Below, one piece after another: positions 30,763-35,751 of a stretch of DNA of 64,000 bases (its first letter is position 1; the number at the start of each line of letters is the position of its first letter). A program made the position numbers and the translations under genes. Source of the DNA: Sphingobacterium arenae (lineage in GTDB: Bacteria; Bacteroidota; Bacteroidia; Sphingobacteriales; Sphingobacteriaceae); assembly GCF_014692505.1 (NCBI RefSeq), contig NZ_JACNYK010000001.1, positions 1,373,922-1,437,921 on the forward strand, in the 5' to 3' direction. The notes below the pieces were generated by a model. The model made no database searches and was not told the origin of the DNA. It was given only the letters and a program-made list of their open reading frames with translations.

Positions 30763-30795
30763 TTTGACTGTTTCAAATTAAAACCCCTATATTTA
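30763..30795 (+). promoter_or_regulatory. Promoter of the threonine operon leader
   Basis: TTTG (30763-30766), a 21-bp spacer and TATATTTA (30788-30795, one mismatch to TAnnTTTG) predict a start near 30800, 13 nt before the leader peptide. The AT-rich stretch between this promoter and the NlpC promoter (30618-30762) holds nothing else I can recognise. Confidence 0.6.
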
Positions 30796-30812
30796 TATCG
30801 TTTTTCAAAAAT

Positions 30813-30881
30813 ATGGAAAGTTTACACCTTATTATTACAACGATTATTATTACCACCGACGCGATTCATCGGAGGAAGTAA
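30813..30881 (+). CDS. thrL: Threonine operon leader peptide (22 aa, Ile/Thr-rich)
   Basis: An ATG-to-TAA frame encodes MESLHLIITTIIITTDAIHR followed by two more residues (Arg, Lys). Ten of 22 codons are Ile (6) or Thr (4), clustered at positions 7-15, the same bias as the E. coli thr leader. It lies between a candidate promoter and a terminator just upstream of thrA. Its Thr codons 14-15 (ACC ACC) form part of protector segment 1 of the attenuator, so a ribosome stalled there for lack of charged tRNA-Thr would block that segment. The codon content and RNA pairings are seen directly; function is inferred. Confidence 0.88.
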   Translation: MESLHLIITTIIITTDAIHRRK

Positions 30882-30944
30882 TTCTATTGTATAAGAAAGT
30901 GTACATAACATATAGAGCCTTCCTCCAAATGGGAAGGCTTTTTT
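30853..30944 (+). promoter_or_regulatory. Threonine attenuator with mutually exclusive pairings
   Basis: Four segments are visible. Segment 1 (CCACCGA, 30853-30859) pairs with segment 2 (TCGGAGG, 30869-30875), with one A-A mismatch. Segment 2 as GGAGGAAG (30871-30878) pairs perfectly over 8 bp with segment 3, CTTCCTCC (30919-30926). Segment 3 as AGCCTTCC (30916-30923) pairs over 8 bp with segment 4, GGAAGGCT (30932-30939), followed by a T run to 30944. Normal translation to the stop covers segment 2 and lets the terminator form. Stalling at the Thr/Ile codons covers segment 1 and allows the 2:3 antiterminator. Confidence 0.85.
30916..30944 (+). terminator. Attenuator terminator before thrA
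   Basis: Stem AGCCTTCC/GGAAGGCT has an 8-nt loop and is followed by a run of six T. It is the 3:4 hairpin of the thr attenuator and ends 41 nt before the thrA start. Confidence 0.88.
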
Positions 30945-30985
30945 AGTTAGTATATACATTATTTTAAATTAATAAATAAACTGAA

Positions 30986-33459: not shown

Positions 33460-34437
33460 ATGAATCAAAATAAAACAGTTAAAAAAATAGATTTTGATAA
33501 AATCTTGAATACCGTCCGGGTGTTTGCACCGGCTACTGTAGCGAACATGATATGTGGATTTGATATATTGGGTTTCGCTGTAGACTATCCGGGGGATGAG
33601 GTCGTTATGTATCGCGTAGCAACGCCTGGAGTGCGTATCCGTTCGATAACCGGAGATGATGGAAGACTGCCGGTCGATGCAGATAAAAATACGGTAAGCG
33701 CCTGCGTACAAATGGTATTGGAATATCTTGGCATTTCGAAAGAAATCGGAGTAGAGATTGAACTCATCAAACATATGCCTATCGGGAGTGGTTTGGGGTC
33801 GAGTTCCGCTAGTACCGTAGGCGGGTTGTTTGCCATCAATAGTTTGTTGGGAAACCCGTTGACCAAGGAAGAATTGTTGCCTTTCTGTGTGGAAGGCGAG
33901 CGTCTTGCCTGCGGTCATGGACATGCTGATAACGTGGCTCCAGCTTTGATGGGTGGTATTACGTTAATCCGCGGACAACATCCGCTTGACGTGATCAAAC
34001 TGCCGGTGCCGGAAGAACTGTATGCGGGAATAGTCTTTCCCAAGGTTGATGTACCTACGCGTGATGCGCGGCAGCTTATAAAAGAAAAAGTGTTTTTGAG
34101 AGATGCCGTTACCCAGTGGGGCAATATCGCTGGGCTAATCGCAGGCCTATATGAAAGGGATTACGCGTTGATTAGTAGAAGCATGCACGACGTGCTTATC
34201 GAACCTACCCGCGCGATTTTGATTCCAGAATTTTATACCATGAAGCAAATTGCGCTCGATGCAGGCGCTCTAAGTTTTGGTATTTCGGGATCGGGACCTT
34301 CTGTAGTTGCTATTTCCCGCGGTGAGGAAACGGCTAAAAATGCGGCGAACCTCATCCAGAAACACTTAACAGATTGTGAGATCGATAGTTTTAAATATGT
34401 ATCGCCTGTCAATATCAATGGCCCAAAAATTTTATAA
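33460..34437 (+). CDS. thrB: Homoserine kinase
   Basis: The protein has 325 residues. As a GHMP kinase it has the phosphate loop GSGLGSSSAS at 109-118, preceded by HMPI, with the N-terminal motif ICGFDILGFAVD and the C-terminal FGISGSGPSVVAI. It phosphorylates homoserine to O-phosphohomoserine in the cytoplasm. It lies between thrA and thrC (6 bp to thrC), giving the classical thrABC order under the same attenuator. Confidence 0.96.
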   Translation: MNQNKTVKKIDFDKILNTVRVFAPATVANMICGFDILGFAVDYPGDEVVMYRVATPGVRIRSITGDDGRLPVDADKNTVSACVQMVLEYLGISKEIGVEIELIKHMPIGSGLGSSSASTVGGLFAINSLLGNPLTKEELLPFCVEGERLACGHGHADNVAPALMGGITLIRGQHPLDVIKLPVPEELYAGIVFPKVDVPTRDARQLIKEKVFLRDAVTQWGNIAGLIAGLYERDYALISRSMHDVLIEPTRAILIPEFYTMKQIALDAGALSFGISGSGPSVVAISRGEETAKNAANLIQKHLTDCEIDSFKYVSPVNINGPKIL

Positions 34438-34443
34438 TAAAAG

Positions 34444-35751
34444 ATGAAATTATATAGTACAAACAATAAGGAACTTCGTGTTTCCTTTCAGGAAGCCGTC
34501 TTCAATTCATTGCCGTCGGACAAAGGCTTATATATGCCCGAAGTTATTCCATCATTGGATCCTGCTTTTATTCGTAATATTCAACAATATTCTTTACAAG
34601 ATATCGCTTTTGAAGTAGCGCAGGCGTTAATCGGAAATGATATTCCAGACGATGATTTAAAGAGCATTATCGCCGATGCGATTAATTTTGATGCGCCCGT
34701 TCGGTTTCTAGATGCGGAAACAGCCGTATTAGAATTATTCCACGGACCGTCATACGCCTTCAAGGATTTTGGCGCGCGATTTATGAGTCGGGTAATGGGC
34801 TATTTCTCTAAGCAAGGAGATCAATTGTTAGATGTTTTAGTTGCTACCTCCGGAGATACCGGTGGAGCTGTCGCATCAGGGTTTTTAGGCGTCGAAGGTA
34901 CACGTGTAACCATACTTTATCCCAAAGGCAAGGTGTCTAAAGTGCAGGAAGAACAATTGACAACGAACGGGAAAAATATACGTGCATTGGAGGTTGACGG
35001 TACGTTTGACGATTGTCAAGCACTGGTGAAAACGGCATTTAATGACGCTGAGCTTAATAACGTGCTGAGATTGACTTCTGCTAATTCCATTAATATTGCT
35101 CGATTGATACCGCAAACATTCTATTATTTTTGGGCATACGCACAACTAAAATCACAAAGTATTTCTGAAGTCGTTTTTACAGTTCCTAGCGGTAATTTTG
35201 GTAATATCGGTGCGGGCTTATTAGCCTATAAAATGGGACTACCGGTGAAACACTTCGTAGCGGGAACCAATATCAATGATACTGTTCCACGTTTTTTGCA
35301 ATCAGGTAGCTACGATCCGAAGCCGTCGGTGCAGACACTGGCAAACGCAATGGACGTGGGGAATCCGAGCAATTGGGTGCGTATTCAAGATATGTTTCAC
35401 AACAATTTGGAAGAACTTCGTCACATCGTATCATCTTATACGTATGATGATGACCAAACGGTGAAAGCAATGGAAGAGCTTTATAATAAATATCAGTATA
35501 TAGCTTGTCCACATACAGCTATTGCTTATCTCGCATCGAATCAATATCGGCAAGATCACCCAGGAACATATGCTTCTGTGTTTTTATCAACAGCCCATCC
35601 ATGTAAATTTCCCGATGCTATTTCTGCGGAAGTATTTGCAAAAATTGAATTGCCAAAAGGTGCCGAGGAATTAGCTGGGAAGCCAAAGATAGCGACGGAA
35701 TTACCTGCGGACTACGAAAGATTTAAATCCTATCTGCTTGTCAATAATTAA
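34444..35751 (+). CDS. thrC: Threonine synthase
   Basis: The protein has 435 residues, matching the long E. coli/yeast-type enzyme. The PLP lysine is K107 in SYAFKDFGARF. The phosphate-binding region VATSGDTGGAVASGF (about 137-151) and TVPSGNFGNIGAGLLA follow, with a C-terminal CPHTAIAYLAS. It converts O-phosphohomoserine to threonine. It is the last gene of the thr operon. I find no clear T-tracted terminator after it; the next structure is an inverted repeat at 35878-35909. Confidence 0.97.
   Translation: MKLYSTNNKELRVSFQEAVFNSLPSDKGLYMPEVIPSLDPAFIRNIQQYSLQDIAFEVAQALIGNDIPDDDLKSIIADAINFDAPVRFLDAETAVLELFHGPSYAFKDFGARFMSRVMGYFSKQGDQLLDVLVATSGDTGGAVASGFLGVEGTRVTILYPKGKVSKVQEEQLTTNGKNIRALEVDGTFDDCQALVKTAFNDAELNNVLRLTSANSINIARLIPQTFYYFWAYAQLKSQSISEVVFTVPSGNFGNIGAGLLAYKMGLPVKHFVAGTNINDTVPRFLQSGSYDPKPSVQTLANAMDVGNPSNWVRIQDMFHNNLEELRHIVSSYTYDDDQTVKAMEELYNKYQYIACPHTAIAYLASNQYRQDHPGTYASVFLSTAHPCKFPDAISAEVFAKIELPKGAEELAGKPKIATELPADYERFKSYLLVNN

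Follow-up and report, generated by a model that had tools for sequence, protein, structure and literature searches.

Structure of the thrABC locus and its leader region

In the window (the whole stretch of 64,000 nucleotides analysed here), thrA, thrB and thrC follow each other with gaps of 26 bases between thrA and thrB and 6 bases between thrB and thrC, and the nearest relatives of thrA come from Sphingobacterium species (92-94% identical). Directly upstream of these genes, positions 30763-30944 comprise a promoter-like element, a short leader ORF, a set of RNA segments with alternative pairings, and an intrinsic terminator (Table 1).

Table 1. Features of the thrABC locus and its upstream region, in window coordinates.
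Feature	Coordinates	Strand	Evidence
Promoter-like element of the Bacteroidota type: -33 TTTG (30763-30766), N21, -7 TATATTTA (30788-30795)	30763..30795	+	direct reading and recurrence
Leader ORF MESLHLIITTIIITTDAIHRRK, 22 codons (6 Ile, 4 Thr), ATG 30813 to TAA 30879-30881	30813..30881	+	counterpart kept in 143 of 153 distinct sequences upstream of thrA
Control codon run Ile-Ile-Thr-Thr-Ile-Ile-Ile-Thr-Thr	30831..30857	+	last two Thr codons, ACC ACC (30852-30857), most constant
Segment 1, putative protector, partner of segment 2	30846..30859	+	own 1:2 pairing beats swapped (0 of 2000 permutations)
Segment 2, partner of segment 3 through its core GGAGGAAG (30871-30878) and of segment 1 over its full length	30869..30882	+	
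Linker hairpin beside the 2:3 helix, completing the composite antiterminator	30882..30917	+	folding; double changes in several linker pairs
Segment 3, CUUCCUCC: 5' arm of the terminator and partner of segment 2	30919..30926	+	
Intrinsic terminator: 3:4 hairpin (30914-30941) and T6 tract (30939-30944)	30914..30944	+	
thrA, bifunctional aspartate kinase / homoserine dehydrogenase I, 815 aa	30986..33433	+	NF006959 equivalog, 1019 bits (cut-off 726)
thrB, homoserine kinase	33460..34437	+	TIGR00191, 217 bits (cut-off 168); NF002288, 363 bits (cut-off 194)
thrC, threonine synthase	34444..35751	+	TIGR00260, 285 bits (cut-off 167)

A first-pass annotation of this DNA had described here a promoter, a leader of 22 codons rich in Ile and Thr, and mutually exclusive 1:2, 2:3 and 3:4 pairings followed by a T run, and all these elements were located. 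In the leader peptide, the residues M E S L H L precede the control run I I T T I I I T T, and D A I H R R K follow it. Thus, 10 of the 22 leader codons specify Thr or Ile, a richness in codons for the end product that is a mark of the attenuator class. As Thr is the precursor of Ile, joint sensing of the two amino acids fits the biochemistry.

The terminator, with the hairpin core GCCUUCC...GGAAGGC, lies before the first structural gene, as in other members of this class, its T6 tract being about 41 nt upstream of thrA. As for the competing structure, the annotation had proposed an antiterminator of 8 bp. The complementarity of GGAGGAAG in segment 2 with CUUCCUCC is indeed perfect over 8 bp, but the whole antiterminator is larger, since the RNA linking segments 2 and 3 forms a hairpin of its own, adding 12 bp (30882-30893 with 30900-30905 and 30912-30917). 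The composite structure, that is, the 2:3 helix together with the linker hairpin, has a folding energy of -18.8 kcal/mol at 37 C, before segment 4 exists. The 223-nt region as a whole has a folding z-score of -2.6 relative to shuffled sequences.

Conservation and specificity of the leader

We assembled 153 distinct upstream regions of thrA, drawn from 80 named contigs and 94 genomes of the same genus. A Thr/Ile-rich leader ORF is present in 143 of them, including nearly every Sphingobacteriaceae genome examined, and in 142 of these 143 it is followed by a terminator, whose T tract starts 43-69 nt past the leader stop codon. Of the ten upstream regions lacking the leader, nine come from outside Sphingobacteriaceae (one Cytophagales, one Lewinella, three other Bacteroidetes, four Treponema), and the tenth is on a truncated contig.

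The constant element of the leader is the Thr codons (2-11 per leader), while the number of Ile codons ranges from 1 to 8; some Pedobacter leaders consist almost entirely of Thr (MNSTITTTTTTTGITRRKVS). The distance from the start of the last Thr codon to the first G, in the purine-rich part of segment 2, equals 17 nt in 79 of 136 relatives and falls between 14 and 18 nt in 130 of them. Segment 2 is retained despite different reading frames at the C-terminus of the peptide (RRK, AEE, GGSSSMVK). The leader peptides matched no curated leader model in Pfam or NCBIfam, short biased peptides being poor HMM targets.

The specificity of the arrangement was assessed with a blind detector, defined as an ORF of 14-40 codons with at least seven of nine consecutive codons for Thr or Ile, followed by a terminator. 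It yielded 78 matches at thrA and none elsewhere (658 kb, both strands); the one match in the window starts at 30813. The arrangement of leader and terminator before thrA is not due to chance, the proper check on which is its conservation.

Covariation of the alternative pairings

In an alignment-free test, we computed duplex energies both for segments taken from one species and for segments exchanged between species, using 37 representative types of segment 3 and 2000 permutations. Own segments paired more strongly than swapped ones for 2:3 (-14.6 vs -11.8 kcal/mol), 3:4 (-20.3 vs -13.7 kcal/mol) and 1:2 (-13.3 vs -11.3 kcal/mol), with a count of 0 of 2000 in each case; these counts are not true probabilities, because the rows of the alignment are related. 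The control pairings gave nothing for 1:3 (1438 of 2000) and little for 2:4 (76 of 2000).

Individual base pairs were counted in MAFFT alignments constructed for each clade, the partner slid by 1-3 columns serving as the control. In Sphingobacterium, 95% of terminator pairs and 86% of antiterminator pairs are standard, compared to 46-71% and 41-68%, respectively, after sliding. In Pedobacter, Mucilaginibacter and relatives, the terminator behaves similarly (92% vs 37-60%), with double changes in 7 of 12 pairs; the signal from the antiterminator is weaker (73% vs 49-56%), as the registers shift between clades.

Compensation is also seen directly. In the 2:3 helix, GGAGGAAG is combined with CUUCCUCC in most species, and CGGGGC with GUCCCG in one Pedobacter clade. 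In the 1:2 pairing, CAGG...CCUG alternates with CCGG...CCGG, so that a synonymous change of the last Thr codon (ACA/ACC) is matched in segment 2. RNAalifold applied to whole alignments recovered some terminator pairs only, since the mutually exclusive structures and shifting registers blur the consensus; moreover, a single consensus fold is uninformative here, as segment 3 takes part in two alternative pairings. Thus, both the swap test and the pair counts reveal a competing antiterminator with covariation, another mark of the attenuator class.

The first-pass annotation had read the region as a ribosome-stalling thr attenuator and had specified in advance what would count against this reading, including a lack of conservation of the Thr/Ile run or of complementary changes among relatives. 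Relatives turned out to have both: Thr/Ile leaders persist throughout Sphingobacteriaceae, and interspecies changes in the 1:2, 2:3 and 3:4 pairings are matched. The reading thus passed this test.

Ribosome position and predicted fold

In a classical attenuator, a stalled ribosome should leave segment 2 free, and a ribosome that has completed the ORF should cover it. We placed a simulated ribosome, covering 12 nt from the A-site codon onward, on RNA ending at segment 3, and calculated equilibrium folding for 142 sequences. When the A site holds the last Thr codon, segment 3 is sequestered by upstream RNA with a mean probability of 0.82. This value stays at about 0.8 over positions ranging from some ten codons upstream of that codon to one codon downstream, decreases to 0.68 two codons and to 0.34 three codons past it, and reaches 0.07 at the stop codon, where 136 of the 142 sequences are under 0.3. 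In the leader from the window, the switch occurs between the GCG codon (0.85) and the next codon, ATT (0.26). The scan thus reproduced the spacing expected of the class, and, given this spacing, a stall anywhere in the control run would correspond to antitermination, and a finished leader, to termination.

The protector role of the 1:2 pairing is less certain. Under equilibrium folding, a free segment 1 still faces competition from the antiterminator, which wins even where segment 1 is partly free; protection would therefore depend on 1:2 forming first, through co-transcriptional kinetics.

Promoter-like element and start of leader translation

The promoter-like element is not specific to the window. 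The pattern TTTG-N21-TAT(A/C)TTTA recurs approximately 17-20 nt upstream of the leader ATG in many relatives, and 81 of 137 relatives reach a best score of 9 or 10 (maximum 10) against the promoter consensus, compared to 12 of 137 shuffled sequences. Since the element is so close to the ATG, a short 5' UTR is expected for the leader mRNA, approximately 10-17 nt if transcription starts where the position of the element suggests.

How a leader without a Shine-Dalgarno (SD) sequence is translated had been raised as a question in the initial reading, and its premise holds: none of the 4-mers GGAG, GAGG, AGGA, AAGG and GGGG occurs at positions -18 to -4 in any of the 137 leaders. The starts are A-rich at positions -7 to -3, with A at -6 in 78% and at -7 in 74% of the 137 leaders. 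In Flavobacterium johnsoniae, where SD sequences are absent, initiation is favoured by adenines at -3 and -6 (PMC6847099), and according to PMC9976891 the anti-SD is sequestered in Bacteroidia ribosomes, which do not recognise SD sequences. Hence a plausible answer is that the short, A-rich start explains ribosome loading at the leader. The core of segment 2, GGAGGAAG, itself resembles an SD sequence; its presence is accounted for by RNA pairing.

Proposed mechanism and alternatives

Taken together, the anatomy, the conservation, the covariation and the agreement of the predicted fold with the position of the ribosome make it very likely that the region is a classical ribosome-mediated transcription attenuator of thrABC. 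We infer in addition translation of the leader, close following of the polymerase by the ribosome, and a response to Thr and Ile. RNA polymerase would start about 10-17 nt upstream of the leader ATG, as the promoter-like element suggests, and a ribosome would load with no SD sequence and trail the polymerase, close coupling of transcription and translation being assumed. If charged tRNA-Thr or tRNA-Ile is scarce, the ribosome would stall within the control run, its front stopping immediately before segment 2; segment 2 and the linker hairpin would then capture segment 3 before segment 4 is made, no terminator would form, and thrABC would be transcribed. Vice versa, if both Thr and Ile are plentiful, the ribosome would reach the stop codon and cover segment 2, so that the 3:4 hairpin would form and transcription would stop at the T tract. 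In an untranslated leader, the 1:2 pairing may protect the terminator.

Alternatively, the nascent IIITTG peptide could arrest the ribosome in response to a ligand, as in TnaC or ErmC, with codon starvation not being the signal. The motif is strongly conserved in Sphingobacterium; however, in relatives the run varies (TITTTTTTTG, TTTNTTTTTTLL, IITSTTG), and the window itself has Asp in place of Gly, hence it is the Thr content that is kept, not the motif. In addition, conservation of ACCACCGG, including the synonymous compensatory change, is explained by the 1:2 pairing, and the residues past the control run change frame freely. We therefore consider peptide arrest very improbable.

Slightly less credible still is translational regulation in which the SD-like GGAGGAAG serves as a reinitiation site for a second short ORF starting at TTG 30889. 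The motif is suitably spaced before this TTG, and in the window and its closest relatives the frame runs past the hairpin with no stop codon, but this candidate ORF was rejected, as it is closed in other relatives. Further, the start of thrA lies about 100 nt downstream in its own A-rich context; SD sequences are not recognised by Bacteroidia ribosomes (PMC9976891); and where CGGGGC replaces the motif, in a Pedobacter clade, segment 3 has changed together with it. Equally hard to credit is a constitutive terminator with an incidental ORF, which would insulate thrA or end an unrelated short RNA: a terminator after a short transcript could serve so, but for this it would require neither a leader nor segment 2, nor a set distance from the last Thr codon, nor the 1:2 and 2:3 pairings, all of which are conserved and co-vary.

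Comparison with known attenuators

Attenuation of the thr operon is a textbook case in Escherichia coli, where a Thr/Ile-rich leader of about 21 codons (thrL) precedes thrABC, the control codons lie inside segment 1, and one segment is common to the antiterminator and the terminator. The attenuator in the window shares with it the target operon, the Thr/Ile leader, the control codons in segment 1 and the shared segment. It differs in the leader without an SD sequence, the promoter of the Bacteroidota type, and the linker hairpin in the antiterminator. This agrees with the earlier suggestion of an enterobacterial-like design of unrelated sequence, as there is no demonstrable sequence homology: with 27.8 bits for the Rfam Thr_leader model (RF00506), whose gathering threshold is 55 bits, the region does not belong to that family, and the model gives higher scores at eight other places in the genome. 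At the gathering threshold, the only Rfam match in the window is a tRNA. The Bacteroid-trp RNA (RF01692), a candidate cis-regulatory RNA of Bacteroidetes linked to trp by its name (Weinberg 2010, PMC2864571), scores at best 32 bits in the genome, with a threshold of 49 bits, and not at thrA.

According to a 2010 survey, leader peptides were not known outside Proteobacteria and Actinobacteria, to which the survey then added Firmicutes (PMC2965389). In the same phylum as the window, a 2021 study of Flavobacterium psychrophilum reports strong clues for leader-peptide attenuation upstream of amino-acid operons; threonine and thrA do not appear in its main text (PMC9723704). A comparative paper of 2010 in Mol Biol (Lopatovskaya, Seliverstov, Lyubetsky; known here through its citation in PMC4833913) may already list a thr attenuator from Bacteroidetes. 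The thr case is thus of a kind already suggested for Flavobacterium, and is an unusually well supported example. Given the F. psychrophilum report and the his leaders before hisG described below, leader-peptide attenuation is probably widespread in Bacteroidota.

For a phylum in which ribosomes disregard SD sequences, the thr leader provides an example of ribosome-mediated attenuation that is both strongly conserved and open to experiment. It carries attenuation of the threonine operon far outside Proteobacteria, to a case lacking detectable sequence homology, and is thus relevant to the frequency with which such switches evolve afresh. If this reading is true, a family-wide switch with no SD sequence and a very short 5' UTR implies fast loading and close coupling in Bacteroidota. 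That the ribosome of this phylum loads fast enough on nascent, almost leaderless RNA and follows the polymerase closely enough for classical attenuation is a tentative proposal, to which we give somewhat less than even credence. The thr attenuator could serve as a reporter of both transcription-translation coupling and start-codon loading in Bacteroidota.

Other leaders in Bacteroidia

A strong full-length match to bifunctional thrA was found in 30 of 139 sampled Bacteroidia genomes, and outside Sphingobacteriaceae an intrinsic terminator is rare upstream of this gene. A different type of thr leader occurs in other Bacteroidia families: the ORF upstream of thrA is Thr-rich, at its end a short GC-rich hairpin with perfect pairing spans both its last Thr codon and its stop codon (ACCCCUUAGGGGU, ACGGGGUGACCCGU), and an intrinsic terminator is lacking; by strict criteria this is seen in 6 of 24 cases, compared to 0.02 expected from shuffled sequences. 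These leaders are possibly subject to Rho-dependent or pause-based control. The ThrA proteins from four loci in Treponema MAGs, which have no leader, are 46-47% identical to that of the window, and gene transfer is possible.

The window genome shows no leader upstream of ilvD, a gene that seems to be internal to an operon. Upstream of hisG in many Bacteroidia, a His-rich ORF is followed by a hairpin and a T tract in 18 of 23 parsed regions, as counted by eye; thus, classical his attenuators look widespread in the class. They differ from the thr leader of the window in both the amino acid and the sequence. The window genome also has a His-rich leader upstream of hisG, MTYLFTHHMHFHHRHFGDM, with an AUCGCC...GGCGAU hairpin beside the stop codon and no T-tract terminator, and two relatives carry leaders related to it.

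Finally, TTTCTACGTGA lies downstream of the stop codons of thr leaders in one family (two loci) and downstream of the stop codon of the his leader in the window genome, where it has a single copy; the pattern ACNACCCCTTAGGGGT occurs in only 4 of 396 Bacteroidia genomes.
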